From: a virus | Length of the DNA: 31,800 bases | IMG/VR virus record: IMGVR_UViG_3300042549_007292 | Span: 1-31,800 of that record | Reading direction: 5' to 3' (one strand) | Part shown: positions 1 through 5,173 of the stretch, one piece after another | Numbering within the stretch: the first letter of the stretch is position 1 | Layout of the letters: every line of letters begins with the position of its first letter | Translations under genes and position numbers: made by a program | Notes under the pieces: generated by a model | Told to the model about the DNA's origin: nothing | Databases searched by the model: none | The model's input: the letters and a program-made list of their open reading frames with translations, nothing else

Positions 1-126
1 GATGATATGATAGAGTCTCTTTATATTGATATGGATTCAATAAGAGAGGTAGATAGAATAGCGATATTAAGTTGGTTATCATCAAATTATAAATCACCTG
101 TAAAAAGAGACAAACCGAATTACTGA
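1..126 (+). CDS. C-terminal fragment of a cassette-encoded protein
   Basis: An open frame enters from the left edge and gives 41 residues before TGA at 124-126; the start lies outside the window. The fragment is polar and rich in Asp, Ser and Lys, with no motif I recognise. Its stop codon overlaps the first box of the next attC-like site, the same close packing seen at later cassettes, so it is probably the last part of a cassette gene. Function unknown. Confidence 0.6.
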   Translation, partial: DDMIESLYIDMDSIREVDRIAILSWLSSNYKSPVKRDKPNY

Positions 127-257
127 TAACGTTCGGGCGGTTGGCGTTCGTTGCCGACTTTGTAACATAAAACTTTAACTTTAAAATAAATGATAATATG
201 AAATACGAATCTTTGATACCCGAAAAACTCGGCAATGACGATAACCGCTTGTTATGT
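124..257 (+). repeat. attC-like site 1
   Basis: The site runs from TGATAAC (124-130) to GTTATGT (251-257). Inside, GGGCGGTT near the left pairs with AACCGC near the right, and TTGCCGA pairs with TCGGCAA further in, giving an imperfect hairpin with a long loop. A small ORF starts in that loop and crosses the right box. The layout matches integron attC sites (RYYYAAC ... GTTRRRY). Confidence 0.75.
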
Positions 258-290
258 GCAGGGCTTTGTTTGAATTGTAAACACCAATAA
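198..290 (+). CDS. 30-residue ORF starting inside attC site 1
   Basis: ATG at 198 follows an AT-rich leader and is read through the right attC box to TAA at 290. The product has two Cys close to the end (LCLNC). Four later cassette ORFs have the same arrangement, with the start in the attC loop and translation across the crossover, which makes this one more believable despite its size. No function recognised; it could also be a leader peptide for the 309 gene. Confidence 0.4.
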   Translation: MKYESLIPEKLGNDDNRLLCAGLCLNCKHQ

Positions 291-308
291 ACAAAACAAC
301 ACAAGACA

Positions 309-587
309 ATGAAAACATATAATGTAAAGTATGATGTTGGACAAGAAGTATATATACTTTTATCCAAAAAAATATTTAAAAGTAAAATTGAAAAGATTAG
401 AATTGTTCATGGGGTACCTTATATCAAAGGCGAAACAATGGAACAAACGGATGGAATTGAAATTGATTACTTGGTTGTAGTTAATAAACAATTCTATCCT
501 TCAGGTGGACATTCATCTAGTTATGATTGGTATAAACAGGATGATATTTTTTTGAATAAAGATGAACTGTGGCGGAAAATAATTTAA
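309..587 (+). CDS. Hypothetical cassette protein, 92 aa
   Basis: The ORF begins 51 nt after the attC 1 crossover box and stops just before attC 2, as expected of a cassette gene. It is a soluble, probably beta-rich protein: residues 1-45 contain a DVGQEVYIL strand followed by a Lys-rich KIEKIRI segment, and the C-terminus has a WYKQDDIF motif followed by KDEL. Small Bacteroidota proteins with a GxEVYxL start and a DDIFxxKEEL end are familiar to me as uncharacterised families. Function unknown. Confidence 0.75.
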   Translation: MKTYNVKYDVGQEVYILLSKKIFKSKIEKIRIVHGVPYIKGETMEQTDGIEIDYLVVVNKQFYPSGGHSSSYDWYKQDDIFLNKDELWRKII

Positions 588-591
588 TTGT

Positions 592-645
592 TTATAACGG
601 TTGAGGATATAAAATCGTTTTAATGTTTTATATCCTTTGTTATGG
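592..645 (+). repeat. attC-like site 2 (54 nt)
   Basis: TTATAAC at 592-598 and GTTATGG at 639-645 flank a perfect 11-bp inverted repeat (AGGATATAAAA and its complement) around the loop TCGTTTTAATG. Sites 3 and 4 have the same length and almost the same loop, so the three form a close family. Confidence 0.88.
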
Positions 646-684
646 TTTAGTTGAATTATTGTTTTACCTTAAAAAAAATAAAAT

Positions 685-948
685 ATGAAAAAATCGGAAA
701 ATTTCAATGAAGCACAAAAAACCAACTTGCGGTTAGCTGCTGTTATAAGCCGTTTTTTATTTCCATATCAAACTTGGATAAAGATGCGAGAAGAATCTAA
801 AGATGAATATGGTGAAAAATTATGCTACTGTGGACACACATATAAATGCACTTGTGGAAATCCAGATAAGAAATGTTTTAATGAAAGTGTAAAGCGAGGT
901 AGCATAATTTTGTGGGATGAAAAAAATGGTTGGAAAAATGGATTATAA
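685..948 (+). CDS. Hypothetical cassette protein with Cys cluster, 87 aa
   Basis: The only notable feature is a Cys/His cluster at about residues 47-63 (CYCGHTYKCTCGNPDKKC), which looks able to bind a metal such as zinc; this is inference from spacing. The stop codon TAA lies inside the first box of attC 3. The ATG follows an A-rich leader of the host type. No known family recognised. Confidence 0.72.
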   Translation: MKKSENFNEAQKTNLRLAAVISRFLFPYQTWIKMREESKDEYGEKLCYCGHTYKCTCGNPDKKCFNESVKRGSIILWDEKNGWKNGL

Positions 949-996
949 CGTCTGATGATAAACAATCGTTTTAATGTTGTTTATCATTTGTTATAT
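943..996 (+). repeat. attC-like site 3 (54 nt)
   Basis: TTATAAC (943-949) and GTTATAT (990-996) enclose a 10-bp inverted repeat (TGATAAACAA and its complement) with the loop TCGTTTTAATG, identical to the loop of site 2. The stem sequence differs completely from site 2, so structure and loop are conserved rather than stem sequence. Confidence 0.88.
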
Positions 997-1039
997 GAAT
1001 GTGTTATTTTTGTTTTACCAATTAAAAAAAATATAAATT

Positions 1040-1213
1040 ATGAAAAATGTTATGAAAGACAGAAAGATTGTTAAAATTGAAATACCAAAAGTGATATGGG
1101 ATGCTGAAATGTCTATATTCAACTTTAGACCAATATTCAAAACTTGGATGGAAAGTATCCAAGACGCTGTTAATAAAACACACGATAGTTATAAACCCTC
1201 AAAACAAAAATAA
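1040..1213 (+). CDS. Hypothetical cassette protein, 57 aa
   Basis: ATG at 1040 follows an A-rich leader; TAA at 1211-1213 lies 6 nt before attC 4. The product is basic at both ends with a central segment containing two Trp and many hydrophobic residues. An alternative start is Met5. No function recognised. Support comes from its place: it fills the only coding space in the cassette between sites 3 and 4. Confidence 0.6.
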   Translation: MKNVMKDRKIVKIEIPKVIWDAEMSIFNFRPIFKTWMESIQDAVNKTHDSYKPSKQK

Positions 1214-1219
1214 CATTTC

Positions 1220-1273
1220 ATATAACGGTTGAGTGTAAAAAATTGTTTTAATGTTTTTTACACTTTGTTATAA
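1220..1273 (+). repeat. attC-like site 4 (54 nt)
   Basis: ATATAAC (1220-1226) and GTTATAA (1267-1273) enclose an 11-bp inverted repeat (AGTGTAAAAAA and its complement) around TTGTTTTAATG. TTCATATAAC (1217-1226) is the exact reverse complement of the cassette start GTTATATGAA (990-999). Confidence 0.9.
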
Positions 1274-1305
1274 GTATGTAAAACAAAAATTATACAAATA
1301 AAATT

Positions 1306-1524
1306 ATGGAAATTAAATATACAATAAGAATTAAGGAAAAACACAACCCACCAACTTTTAAGGAAGAACTTGGTAAAGGTGTTGTTGCAACACAAATTGC
1401 AGATTTCAAAGGTGCAAATGAAAAGGACTTAGATAAACCAAATTTGCAACGACAGATATTTGAATTAGCAGAAAAGTTAAAGAACGAATGGTTTGAGGTT
1501 GTGTTTGAAATAAACAATCCATAA
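1306..1524 (+). CDS. Hypothetical cassette protein, 72 aa
   Basis: A small, highly charged protein with a beta-type N-terminus (MEIKYTIRIKEKH) and a C-terminal helix with WFEVVFEI. The pattern suggests an alpha/beta fold but no family is recognised. It begins 32 nt after attC 4 and ends 15 nt before attC 5. An antisense ORF over the same bases is rejected because the plus-strand ORF fits the cassette layout. Confidence 0.72.
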   Translation: MEIKYTIRIKEKHNPPTFKEELGKGVVATQIADFKGANEKDLDKPNLQRQIFELAEKLKNEWFEVVFEINNP

Positions 1525-1539
1525 TTTTTGTTTTATTGC

Positions 1540-1741
1540 TTATAACGGTTCGCGGGTTGGCGATAGTAATTTTACGGATTTAAAAAACGAAACAAAATGG
1601 AAGATAAAATAAAAGAAGTATTTAAGAAATACAGCAAATCAGTTGATACGGAGTACAATGTTTACAACTGCTTAATAGAAGAAGATTGGTCAAATATAGC
1701 AGAGGAGTTAGTAAAATTATTTCGCCAACCTGCTGTTATGC
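1540..1741 (+). repeat. attC-like site 5 (long loop)
   Basis: TTATAAC (1540-1546) and GTTATGC (1735-1741) are the ends. GCGGGTTGGCGA on the left pairs with TCGCCAACCTGC on the right with one mismatch. The loop of about 150 nt holds the start of the 1597 ORF. CTTATAAC (1539-1546) is the reverse complement of the cassette start GTTATAAG (1267-1274). Confidence 0.8.
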
Positions 1742-1842
1742 CTTCGTTGCCAAATGGCAAAAGGGTGTTAGCAGCACTAAAGGAATTGTCTGATTGCTTC
1801 ACTGATGAAGAACGAAAAACTATGTTTGGCAATGAGGCATAA
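1597..1842 (+). CDS. Hypothetical protein translated across attC 5, 81 aa
   Basis: The ORF starts in the attC 5 loop after an A-rich leader. Residues 1-46 come from the attC site; the crossover box is read as codons for Ala-Val-Met near residues 46-48, and the rest belongs to the downstream cassette. An ATG at 1738 in the same frame could also start a 34-residue product wholly inside the cassette. The N-terminal half looks helical and acidic. The stop overlaps attC 6. Function unknown. Confidence 0.62.
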   Translation: MEDKIKEVFKKYSKSVDTEYNVYNCLIEEDWSNIAEELVKLFRQPAVMPSLPNGKRVLAALKELSDCFTDEERKTMFGNEA

Positions 1843-1957
1843 CGGAATACAAATAAACGCAGTTTTATGAAGAACTTAATAGAAGAAATACAGTACCAAT
1901 TTGAAATGCTATGCCGATGGATGCTAGAACAAAAATTGCGTTTATTTGGTGTTAGCA
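1837..1957 (+). repeat. attC-like site 6
   Basis: GCATAAC (1837-1843) and GTTAGCA (1951-1957) are the ends. AATACAAATAAACGCA pairs with TGCGTTTATTTGGTGTT on the right. AGGCATAAC (1835-1843) is the exact reverse complement of the cassette start GTTATGCCT (1735-1743). Confidence 0.85.
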
Positions 1958-2052
1958 GAGCGTTTTATTGCCAGTCAGAAATTGAAGGTAATAGAAAATG
2001 CACAAATCAATGCGAACACTGTAAAGAGTATTACAAACCGTTGGAGCAATAA
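1867..2052 (+). CDS. Small Cys-rich protein translated across attC 6, 61 aa
   Basis: The start codon lies in the attC 6 loop. The first 28 or so residues, a helical segment, are encoded by the attC site, and the crossover is read through as FGVSRAF. The C-terminal half has four Cys (YCQSE ... CTNQCEHC), which suggests a small metal-binding knuckle; this is inference only. It ends 6 nt before attC 7. Confidence 0.6.
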   Translation: MKNLIEEIQYQFEMLCRWMLEQKLRLFGVSRAFYCQSEIEGNRKCTNQCEHCKEYYKPLEQ

Positions 2053-2058
2053 AATGTC

Positions 2059-2190
2059 TGCTAACGTTTTGCAGCTATATTTAGTTGCGGATTTTGAAAA
2101 CGAAAACTTTAAATAAAGATAAAATGAAATTAGAAGAACAAAACTCGAATGAACCACAGAAACCGCAATTGAATATAGGTGCTGTTAGCA
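2059..2190 (+). repeat. attC-like site 7
   Basis: TGCTAAC (2059-2065) and GTTAGCA (2184-2190) are the ends. CAGCTATATTTAGTTGCGG pairs with CCGCAATTGAATATAGGTG with few mismatches. TCTGCTAAC (2057-2065) is the exact reverse complement of the cassette start GTTAGCAGA (1951-1959). Confidence 0.88.
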
Positions 2191-2330
2191 GCAGTGTTTT
2201 GATGAAGTATATTAATATGACGAGAGAGGAAGAGATTCGGTTTATGAGTGAGTGTATAAATGGGAAACCGAGATATTCAGATAGCGAAATAGCTTTAGGT
2301 TTAGCAATGATGTCAATTAGTGGTAAGTAA
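2124..2330 (+). CDS. Hypothetical protein translated across attC 7, 68 aa
   Basis: I chose ATG 2124 because it directly follows an A-rich leader like its neighbours; an in-frame ATG at 2085 would add 13 residues and lies closer to the attC stem. About 20 residues come from the attC loop, then the crossover is read as GAVSSS. The cassette part contains a helical segment (MTREEEIRFMSECI) and a hydrophobic end. Function unknown. Confidence 0.6.
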   Translation: MKLEEQNSNEPQKPQLNIGAVSSSVLMKYINMTREEEIRFMSECINGKPRYSDSEIALGLAMMSISGK

Positions 2331-2336
2331 CATTGC

Positions 2337-2457
2337 TGCTAACGGTTTGCAGATTGGCGTTGTTGCCTCACAAATGTTTAATTGAAACACTAAATTTAAT
2401 AATATGGAAAATGATAATTTGAAAGACGAAAGCAATAACGCCAATGTGCTGTTAGCG
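2337..2457 (+). repeat. attC-like site 8
   Basis: TGCTAAC (2337-2343) and GTTAGCG (2451-2457) are the ends. GCAGATTGGCGTTGTTGC pairs with GCAATAACGCCAATGTGC with two mismatches. TGCTGCTAAC (2334-2343) is the exact reverse complement of the cassette start GTTAGCAGCA (2184-2193). Confidence 0.9.
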
Positions 2458-2862
2458 GATAGTAAAAATGGGCTAACTCCGATGCTCTTTGAATTGGGCT
2501 GGGGATGGTATGAAGATTGGAGTTACCATCTATTTATCCATTTCGGTAAAACGCAGGAGCAATTCAAAGAAGATGTAAAATTGCTTCTTGTAAAATATGG
2601 AAAGGATTATTTGAAAAGCGAAACAAGTTGGGCAGGTGCGAATGGGTGGGTGGATTTCATTGCCGATAAAATGCCTGAACTTGGCTACCAACCGATAAAG
2701 CCAATTAGAGAAAGTTTCTTTGGTGCATATATAATTGAAGGCAATCAAGATGATGACAAGCAGTGGGGAGAAGTTGTTGGAGATGAGCTTTTACAAGAAG
2801 CAATTTTACACAATAATAAATTGCGTGAGGAAATGAACAATAGTAACAATGAAGCCCAATAG
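2404..2862 (+). CDS. Hypothetical cassette protein translated across attC 8, 152 aa
   Basis: This is the largest cassette gene here. Residues 1-19 are encoded in the attC 8 loop, including the start codon, and the crossover is read as VLLAD. The rest (about 22-152) is a Trp-rich soluble protein with ELGWGWYEDWSYHLF near its start and an acidic C-terminus. Without the attC-provided start the cassette has no early in-frame ATG until residue 27, so the attC may supply its initiation. No family recognised. Confidence 0.75.
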   Translation: MENDNLKDESNNANVLLADSKNGLTPMLFELGWGWYEDWSYHLFIHFGKTQEQFKEDVKLLLVKYGKDYLKSETSWAGANGWVDFIADKMPELGYQPIKPIRESFFGAYIIEGNQDDDKQWGEVVGDELLQEAILHNNKLREEMNNSNNEAQ

Positions 2863-2876
2863 CCCATTTTTATTTC

Positions 2877-3005
2877 CGCTAACGGTTGGGTGTATATGTA
2901 GTGTGAGATTAGAACCACTACACTTGATTTAACCACAAATGTTTATTAGAAATAGAAATTTGAATATATCACTTAACCTCACATTACATATACACCTTGT
3001 TATGT
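2877..3005 (+). repeat. attC-like site 9
   Basis: CGCTAAC (2877-2883) and GTTATGT (2999-3005) are the ends. GGTGTATATGTA pairs with TACATATACACC, extended by TGTGAG/CTCACA. TCCGCTAAC (2875-2883) is the exact reverse complement of the cassette start GTTAGCGGA (2451-2459). The loop shares TTAACCACAAATG with site 11 and a close variant with site 10. Confidence 0.9.
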
Positions 3006-3102
3006 GTAGGTGTGGATTATTAAGATAAATGTTTATTCGGAGAACTGAACAAAATTTTAAAAGAAAAAGAAGGGTGGATTTTTTTATTTAAAGAATTATT
3101 GG

Positions 3103-3110
3103 TATATTTG
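3103..3110 (+). promoter_or_regulatory. Possible cassette-borne promoter (-7 TATATTTG)
   Basis: TATATTTG matches the Bacteroidota -7 consensus TAnnTTTG exactly and lies 17 nt before the ATG at 3128. No clear TTTG -33 box is seen upstream, only a T-run. If active, this cassette would be transcribed independently of the rest of the array. Confidence 0.45.
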
Positions 3111-3127
3111 TAAAAAAAATAAAGGAT

Positions 3128-3409
3128 ATGAAAATCGAAGATATTAAATACGAAAAACATAAATTTGAAATTGTTCAATGGTTTAAGAATGATGGAACAA
3201 TTTTAGGTGAAATTGAAAACGAACATGACTTTAATAATCTTAGAATAGAGTTAGTTAAAAATAACATAACTAAAGATTGTTATTTTATGTGGAACGATAA
3301 AAAAATAACTTTAGACGAAGAAGGTAATATGTCATCATTTCCTAGAGGATTATACGACCATGTTCAAGTAGCGATGATGAATTTATTCAATCTAAGAAAA
3401 CGTGTGTAG
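3128..3409 (+). CDS. Hypothetical cassette protein, 93 aa
   Basis: The start follows an A-rich leader with AAAGGAT, a weak Shine-Dalgarno look-alike that is unusual in this window. The protein is charged, with EIVQWFKNDGTILGEIE near the N-terminus and LYDHVQVAMMNLFNLRKR at the C-terminus, probably alpha/beta. No family recognised. It sits alone between attC 9 and attC 10. Confidence 0.75.
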   Translation: MKIEDIKYEKHKFEIVQWFKNDGTILGEIENEHDFNNLRIELVKNNITKDCYFMWNDKKITLDEEGNMSSFPRGLYDHVQVAMMNLFNLRKRV

Positions 3410-3468
3410 GTTTTTCTTTTAAAATTTTCAACCGAAATATTGATTGGAACGATAAACGAAACACTTAC

Positions 3469-3563
3469 ACATAACGGTTGGGTGTATGAAACGTAACCTA
3501 ACCACAAACTTTGAAATTAACCACTGAACTATAATAGGTTATGTTTTATACACCTTGTTATAC
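3469..3563 (+). repeat. attC-like site 10
   Basis: ACATAAC (3469-3475) and GTTATAC (3557-3563) are the ends. GGTGTAT pairs with ATACACC and GTAACCTA pairs with TAGGTTAT further in. TACACATAAC (3466-3475) is the exact reverse complement of the cassette start GTTATGTGTA (2999-3008). Confidence 0.9.
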
Positions 3564-3671
3564 ACAGTACGGTTTAATTAAGTAGAAGTTTGATACGAAG
3601 AACAATAAAAACTTTTTAAAATGTGCGGTGGAAAATTTAATTTCAAATATTTATATATAAACTAAAATATT

Positions 3672-3926
3672 ATGAGTAAAGAAATGAGAGAACAAATAGA
3701 CAGAGTAAAGAATTGGAAACAGTTTAATGAGAATATATATAAACCAACATTTAAAGATATAGATAAACCGTTATATAAAGAACCTAAAACTGGTAAAGAA
3801 CATTCATTAAACTATGAAGATATAGATTCTGAGTTTTCAAAATATTTAAGACAAAATTACTATAATGTGAAACTTAGTAATGAGGATGTTTCTTTAATTA
3901 GAAAAGAGTGGAAGGAAAATTTTTAA
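3672..3926 (+). CDS. Hypothetical cassette protein, 84 aa
   Basis: A small Lys/Glu-rich soluble protein with many Tyr and Asn; no hydrophobic segments or recognisable motif. It starts 108 nt after the attC 10 crossover, behind a long AT-rich leader that could hold a promoter, and ends 48 nt before attC 11. Function unknown. Confidence 0.72.
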   Translation: MSKEMREQIDRVKNWKQFNENIYKPTFKDIDKPLYKEPKTGKEHSLNYEDIDSEFSKYLRQNYYNVKLSNEDVSLIRKEWKENF

Positions 3927-3973
3927 AAAGTTTTTTACACAGAACTTAATTTGAAACATGAAAGTAGTATTGT

Positions 3974-4066
3974 GTATAACGGTTGAGGCTATGAGCAGTT
4001 GCCTTGTAAATACTGCTCGATTAACCACAAATGCTAATAGGCAATTGCTTATAGCCTTTGTTATAA
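3974..4066 (+). repeat. attC-like site 11
   Basis: GTATAAC (3974-3980) and GTTATAA (4060-4066) are the ends. GGCTAT pairs with ATAGCC, and GCAGTTGCCT pairs with AGGCAATTGC with one mismatch. TGTGTATAAC (3971-3980) is the exact reverse complement of the cassette start GTTATACACA (3557-3566). Confidence 0.92.
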
Positions 4067-4307: not shown

Positions 4308-4317
4308 GGCTTATAAC
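4308..4317 (+). other. Unmatched attC half site at the array end
   Basis: GGCTTATAAC is the exact reverse complement of the start of its own cassette, GTTATAAGCC (4060-4069), so it is a true attC left box. No attC-type stem or well-matched right box follows. The next 50 nt hold only a GATTATATAATC palindrome, AT-rich repeats and a GTTACAT at about 4359, just before the recombinase gene. The attC was either truncated or recombined here. Confidence 0.7.
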
Positions 4318-4369
4318 ATGATTATATAATCAACTCTCTATAACTAATTAATAATTAATAGGTTACATA

Positions 4370-5173
4370 ATGAAAAATCAAAAAATTATAAAGATTTGTG
4401 AAGAAAAGTTTATATACTTAAATTACTCACCTCGAACAAGAGATAACTATCTCTCACATATCAGACCTTTCTTAGAGAGTTTAGATGATAAACAAGTAAT
4501 ACACTGCAATTCCCAAGATTTCCAATCTTATCTAGATAATTATAAATTCACCTCAGTGTCTCAACAAAACCAAGTTATTAACGCTATACGATTCTTATAC
4601 AAGTTTGGTCTAAATAAGAAATATGATAAAGTATCATTTAGAAGACCTAAATCAGAGAAAAAACTACCAAAAGTAGTTGACGGAGAGTTTATTATAAACC
4701 AATTATCCAAGATTAAGAATATCAAACATAAAGCAATACTAACTTTAACATTTTCTGTTGGATTAAGAGTATCTGAAATAATTAATCTTAAAATTGAGAA
4801 TATTGATTCCAAAAGAATGTTGATTTATATCAAAAATGCTAAAGGTAGAAAAGACAGGATTGTTCCACTCTCAGAAAAAGTACTAATATTACTTAGAGAA
4901 TATTTTGTTCAGTATAAACCAAAAGAGTATTTATTTAATGGTCAAAATTCAAATCAATACTCAGTAGGAAGTTGTCAAGTAATTTATAAAAAGTATATAG
5001 ATTCTACAGGACACATTCATACATTACGACATTCATGCTTTACAAATTTATTAGAAAACGGGACAGATTTAAGGATTATTCAGAAAATCGCAGGACATTC
5101 AAATATTAAAACTACTGAGATATATACGCATGTATCTAATCAAATTTTAAGTAAAGTAAATTTACCAATTTAA
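4370..5173 (+). CDS. Tyrosine recombinase (XerC/D-like integrase)
   Basis: The 267-residue protein has a SAM-like N-terminal core-binding domain (about 5-85) and a catalytic domain with all expected residues: Arg133 in GLRVSE, Lys158 in AKGRKDR, His217 and Arg220 in HTLRH, His243 in AGHSN and the nucleophile Tyr252 in EIYTHVS. It would cut and rejoin DNA at short core sites through a 3'-phosphotyrosine. Only about 28 residues separate YLF (187-189) from HTLR, so the extra segment that lets IntI handle folded single-stranded attC is not evident. It lies directly after the cassette array in the same direction. It could be a divergent integron recombinase, or a prophage integrase whose target was the array. 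Confidence 0.95.
   Translation: MKNQKIIKICEEKFIYLNYSPRTRDNYLSHIRPFLESLDDKQVIHCNSQDFQSYLDNYKFTSVSQQNQVINAIRFLYKFGLNKKYDKVSFRRPKSEKKLPKVVDGEFIINQLSKIKNIKHKAILTLTFSVGLRVSEIINLKIENIDSKRMLIYIKNAKGRKDRIVPLSEKVLILLREYFVQYKPKEYLFNGQNSNQYSVGSCQVIYKKYIDSTGHIHTLRHSCFTNLLENGTDLRIIQKIAGHSNIKTTEIYTHVSNQILSKVNLPI

Follow-up and report, generated by a model that had tools for sequence, protein, structure and literature searches.

The stretch of DNA analysed here (the window) is a 31.8-kb viral record which carries genes for tail and baseplate between 18 and 31 kb, with PHROG baseplate wedge matches, and eleven attC-like hairpins within positions 124-4066. All array features of the window described below lie on the + strand. 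The hairpins have the R''-L''-L'-R' architecture, many per array and in the same orientation, and in 96 of 100 loci all attC are on one strand. A first, loose R-box finder was too noisy; nine of the eleven sites were obtained with a tightened version, and the other two, sites 6 and 9, have poorly matching R boxes and had to be picked out by eye. Among the sites given by the finder, site 2 (592..645), which has no leader, site 3 (943..996) and site 4 (1220..1273) form a 54-nt class, and sites 10 (3469..3563) and 11 (3974..4066) belong to classes of 95 and 93 nt. Site 9 (2877..3005), seen in the sequence, also lacks a leader, and its gene has its own ATG at 3128. On the 3' side of the array, and on the same strand, follow one more gene, a candidate attI-like element, TTATAACATGATTATATAATCAACTC (4311..4336), which is a diverged form of the TAACTATATTATATATGTAA of relatives, and the gene of a 267-aa tyrosine recombinase (4370..5173) of a conserved kind which adjoins attC arrays in many phages.

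The sequence-only reading had described for sites 5 to 8 an ATG inside the attC loop, from which a frame runs through the GTT of the R' box into the next gene, with this GTT falling in one phase, as a valine codon, at sites 5, 6 and 7 and in another at site 8. This description is confirmed, the phase being 0 at the first three sites and 2 at the last. The long leader-coding loop of site 5 (1540..1741) carries an ATG at 1597, and the ORF that begins there (1597..1842) crosses R' (GTT at 1735) in phase 0, joins MEDKIKEV...LFRQPA to VMPS and ends on a TAA within the R'' box of site 6. Site 6 (1837..1957) is discernible by eye as CAAATAAACGCAGTTTT...AAAATTGCGTTTATTTG, its R boxes agreeing at only 4/7, which is why the finder skipped it; its ORF (1867..2052) crosses R' at GTT 1951 in phase 0 and joins MKNLIEE...KLRLFG to VSRA. 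From site 7 (2059..2190), whose class was used for sampling other phages, the ORF 2124..2330 crosses GTT 2184, again in phase 0, and joins MKLEEQNSNEPQKPQLNIGA to VSSS, and from site 8 (2337..2457) ORF8 (2404..2862) crosses GTT 2451 in phase 2 and joins MENDNLKDESNNANV to LLAD. Sites 5, 7 and 8 score as attC hairpins. ORF8 also contains a perfect 22-nt inverted repeat (2574-2595 and 2789-2810, with 193 nt between) and gave no match when searched in genome contigs.

Site 1 (124..257) had been thought probably to supply an N-terminus too, and this part of the description fails: its loop ORF, from ATG 199, crosses R' (MKYESLIPEKLGNDDNR followed by LLCAG...), stops 37 nt later, at 289, and the gene has its own ATG at 309. 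The loop ORF of site 1 is a short upstream ORF. Another ORF of the window, at 685..948, has an N-terminus resembling a captured leader, MKKSENFNEAQKTNLRLAA joined to VISR; its R' box GTTATAA lies at 742, there is no matching left attC arm, and it may be read as a captured leader made permanent.

Crossing frames are general in Bacteroidota phages, being common and not universal. Among viral attC of 115-145 nt, 90 of 137 cross into an open frame of at least 90 nt, as against 2/137 on the mirror strand and 3/21 for attC of the same length in bacterial genome contigs; viral attC shorter than 100 nt cross in 7/75 cases, and a crossing ORF is lacking in 54 of 157 long viral attC. The frames extend 90-960 nt beyond R', and the leader encoded by the attC has 13-46 residues. 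By the mirror-strand and bacterial controls, crossing is more frequent than chance allows. The earlier note had asked whether the phase across GTT is kept in other arrays: phases 0/1/2 are distributed 92/2/26 across 120 leaders and 51/2/22 across 75 attC clusters (defined at 70-75% identity, since 62% lumped all sites). In phase 1, GTTA(A/G) would be read as a stop, which is why this phase is disfavoured. To avoid bias, attC were sampled by the left arm alone, from viral as well as bacterial collections. An in-frame leader, for example MLENENLNEPQKPQLNIGA joined to V, is present at most of the 131-134-nt sites of the site-7 class on viral contigs, and the related phage copies keep the loop frame open; where the same arms occur in bacteria, the loop between them differs, is non-coding and mostly lacks a crossing frame. 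When two bacterial families were searched by pattern, hardly any additional arrays appeared. Viral loci L072, L076, L083, L085, L087, L103 and others contain an attC class of 76-77 nt that shares the left arm and lacks a leader.

The loop starts carry an initiation signal of their own. An A stands at -12 of the loop ATG in 89% of 75 attC clusters against a background of 45% (93% of 112 leaders), in keeping with the earlier proposal that the A-rich Bacteroidota leader is a genuine initiation signal; for other genes of the same phage, in the window, the A signal peaks at -13/-14. The region of the loop ATG is mostly unpaired (0.69), and the hairpin arms are unpaired at 0.22. The idea that AT-rich hairpins simply happen to be free of stops agrees with the weak constraint on leader sequences, but it is refuted by the mirror-strand count (2/137), the bacterial count (3/21), the phase bias, the A at -12 and the conserved body frames, and we consider that it can be set aside.

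Selection on the downstream part of the fusions (the body) argues in the same direction. In body A, 57 codons are readable from the attC start alone, and over this stretch pN/pS is 0.06 in frame and 2.0 and 11.4 out of frame, with differences distributed 15/0/77 over the three codon positions; no ATG, GTG or TTG occurs for 58 codons. These codons are selected before any possible start of their own, which supports the claim that attC supplies the translation start to bodies that lack one. Body B gives a pN/pS of 0.31. Functional constraint on the leader sequence was sought and none was found, pN/pS being 0.71 versus 0.72 and 1.09 off frame. The bodies are therefore the selected proteins and the leaders loosely constrained tails, whose peptide sequence may be of no importance in itself. 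Among the bodies are several DNA methyltransferases, conserved from the junction onward, and GenBank annotation places starts of such methyltransferases inside attC loops. Taken as statistical and selection evidence, these data make it very likely that the loop starts are real. They also bear on another explanation, in which the loop ORFs are regulatory short ORFs acting by termination and reinitiation, as proposed for attI1 ORF-11 and attC short ORFs of class 1 integrons (PMC8876359), and translation of the bodies begins within them. In the window, site 1 fits such a mechanism, but the crossing ORFs do not end near R', body A offers no start codon over its strongly selected stretch and the methylase bodies are conserved directly after the junction, so that we regard reinitiation as very improbable for the crossing frames.

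A different question is what unit moves. Neighbour sharing was scored at identities of 0.80 and above, since a cut-off of 0.72 had proved misleading in AT-rich DNA. Among 401 sites, 59 pairs share the attC and the downstream body and not the upstream neighbour (-AD), 56 pairs share the downstream body with a different attC, 14 share the upstream body with a different attC (U--), and the canonical sharing of a body with its 3' attC (UA-) was observed in 0 pairs; all the recent cases with 100% identity break at R''. The way the sites were fetched enriched the set for body B, which was therefore analysed alone: over 13 contexts and 78 pairs, the 5' attC core is shared in 22, the left neighbour in 0 and the 3' attC core in 1. 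Cultured phages decide the question. Between the Baltic Flavobacterium phages filifjonk9-1 and tooticki6-1, the only difference in 6.2 kb is one 506-nt cassette, inserted at TAACGTT (R'') and consisting of attC, leader and body. Ten cultured Flavobacterium phage genomes gave 80 distinct array breakpoints: R'' (TAAC) accounts for 61, R' for 1, and the other 18 lie elsewhere; several of these 18 are R'' breaks where a short piece of the arm is shared. The ten arrays all end, after different last cassettes, at the same TAACTACAATATTACA, which by its sequence is an attI-like junction equivalent to the TAACTATATTATATATGTAA of the window's relatives. From the breakpoints and this common end we conclude that the cassette consists of a 5' attC, a leader and a body, with the genes pointing at the attI-like site, and therefore that in most recombination events leader and body stay together. 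The attC thus travels with the downstream body instead of standing at the 3' end of a gene as in integrons, and in many bodies the end coincides with the TAA of the following R'' box or lies directly ahead of it.

The GTT of R' had been proposed as the crossover, and as the main crossover it does not hold. In such a scheme a canonical cassette (body plus 3' attC) would recombine at R' and every event would give the body a new leader. Exact R' breaks with the frame retained do occur for bodies A, B, C and others, and the longer left arm resembles a canonical attC in this orientation; against this stand the absence of canonical sharing among the 401 sites, the R'' breaks of every recent identical case, the single R' break beside 61 R'' breaks in cultured phages and the attI-like element, which lies where the gene array ends on its 3' side, and together they make this scheme improbable.

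The earlier proposal that recombination swaps N-terminal leaders stands in part, since the same bodies do occur behind different leaders with the frame kept, even though R' is not the main crossover. Body A is found behind 4 unrelated leaders, all in frame and joined at GTT, and where homologues occur outside arrays, they start at the junction point with an ATG of their own. The family is an ordinary gene with its own start in large phages, namely Tenacibaculum phage pT24 (L210), where it adjoins Pnk, and Sphingomonas phage PAU. Body B stands behind 7 leader types across 17 loci, all in phase 0 and joined at GTT; its cassette had no match in the phage isolate collection. The body of ORF8 has a second leader in L199, with the break at GTTAGC and phase 2 retained, and between L102 and L114 the leader switch is visible base by base. 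Conversely, in filifjonk9-1 a single leader, MNTNKTQAEQLPQDA, precedes two different bodies. Judged from these sequences, leader exchange is real but secondary, a minor and evolutionarily visible outcome. The joining at R', and this step alone, could be due to homologous recombination of attC arms or to a replaced attC core, with selection then retaining in-frame products, rather than to site-specific recombination: the leader of L189 is chimeric (MTNKAQKP plus ALRKTP), and L137 and L150 have common outer attC arms with a different loop. The L102/L114 switch and the body A and B swaps nevertheless change to unrelated attC cores and break at GTT, and we hold this route to be possible, though doubtful.

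The recombinase of the window matches Pfam Phage_integrase and SAM_4. Against TIGR02249 (IntI) it reaches 144.8 bits, for a cut-off of 265, with the match in two pieces; the alignment with V. cholerae IntI4 is likewise in two pieces, and the Arg-His spacing is 84 throughout the clade. By sequence the enzyme is Xer-like, without the IntI insert (the I2 region), and is not of the IntI type. Relatives occur in 35 viral loci, and in most of these an attC array immediately precedes the gene on its own strand. An element like TAACTATATTATATATGTAA, a candidate attI, is conserved before the recombinase in relatives; the corresponding candidate in cultured phages is TAACTACAATATTACA. Phage filifjonk9-1 has an array and no annotated integrase among 68 CDS, so that its array corresponds to a CALIN, a category which does not apply to the window, where the recombinase is present; the enzyme acting in filifjonk9-1 would therefore come from elsewhere.

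Other modules were seen in the arrays. Leaderless attC (L021:8278-8460, L088, L006, L129, L069, L099) have in common, after R', a conserved 40-60-nt 5' UTR, such as GTTATGTGCTGGGCGGTTTATCAGCACTGAATTTAATTTGAAAACGAAATG, which ends at the ATG; we read it as another type of start module, located downstream of the site. Mini cassettes without a gene, such as GTTATAAAATCGTTTTAATGTTTTATAAC, are found at L004:9920-9955, L027, L035, L080 and L141, and a CGTTTTAATG loop is common to mini cassettes and 54-nt attC. Few homologues of the small bodies were found.

Phage integrons and CALINs are known: attC arrays occur in temperate and lytic phages, including a Polaribacter phage (Qi et al. 2023, PMC9892861). 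The sections of that article considered here describe, as in our case, attC arrays, a Bacteroidota phage and DNA methyltransferase cassettes; they do not mention attC that contain start codons or N-termini, cassettes with a 5' attC or in-frame leader exchange. In class 1 integrons, attI1 ORF-11, ORF-17 and ORF-18 and the attC short ORFs (PMC8876359) are similar in that a recombination site supplies a translation start, which benefits cassettes without one and can overlap the crossover; those ORFs end at or just after the junction and act by reinitiation, whereas in most long attC of our arrays the frame continues and becomes an N-terminus, and it does not terminate at the core site like the ORF-11 enhancer. 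In the integrons of atypical orientation of Treponema (PMC3607928), too, the recombinase gene shares its strand with the cassette genes, but intI is transcribed toward attI, whereas here the genes point to an attI-like site just upstream of the recombinase start and an attC lies 5' of each gene. Fused cassettes (PMC4670013) link the coding regions of two cassettes as well, but arise by attC loss, whereas here the attC is intact and coding. In the open-licence literature we found no description of attC supplying an in-frame start codon and N-terminus, of 5'-attC cassettes or of in-frame leader exchange; prior work may exist elsewhere. The cultured Flavobacterium phages MN812206-MN812241 (L211-L228) have attC arrays in their first 9 kb, full of DNA methyltransferase cassettes, which vary between co-isolated phages. 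Nilsson et al. (PMC7077304) proposed methyltransferase content as the reason for plating differences on related hosts; the words integron and cassette are absent from that paper and the array was not noticed.

We are confident that these loci are phage integron-like arrays in which an attC lies 5' of each gene and the unpaired loop of its hairpin is the translation start region. In the sequence, the loop provides an A-rich start region of the Bacteroidota type and an ATG, the 3' arm and the R' box are coding and form the leader, and the frame continues, in phase 0 or less often in phase 2, into a body often without a usable start of its own. Ribosomes starting in the loop would open the hairpin and produce a leader-body fusion, such as the predicted peptide MQKTLFENENLIEPLTPAFCIGAVSR. 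By comparison of the loci, the cassette normally moves as a whole with its junction at R'' and joins an attI-like TAAC element where the array ends on its 3' side; the recombination would be carried out by the neighbouring Xer-like recombinase or, where the phage has none, by a host or co-infecting enzyme. Bodies have also been re-paired with unrelated leaders exactly at the R' GTT with the frame retained, which would come about either by recombination of the opposite attC strand or by exchange between attC copies. As its sequence is little constrained, the leader would mainly be a tolerated start module. A stronger version, which we put forward only tentatively, sees in the array an exchanger of N-termini in which start-less bodies and start-supplying attC share a fixed GTT frame interface and which, with a Xer-type recombinase instead of IntI, would both move genes and swap exon-like first segments.

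A start inside the recombination hairpin would be one way to express cassettes anywhere in an array without a common promoter-proximal start, and may explain the odd, unrelated N-terminal tails on small proteins of Bacteroidota phages. It would connect cassette shuffling in cultured lytic phages with their DNA methyltransferase repertoire, and it makes testable the idea of a Xer-type recombinase running an integron-like system of opposite gene polarity.
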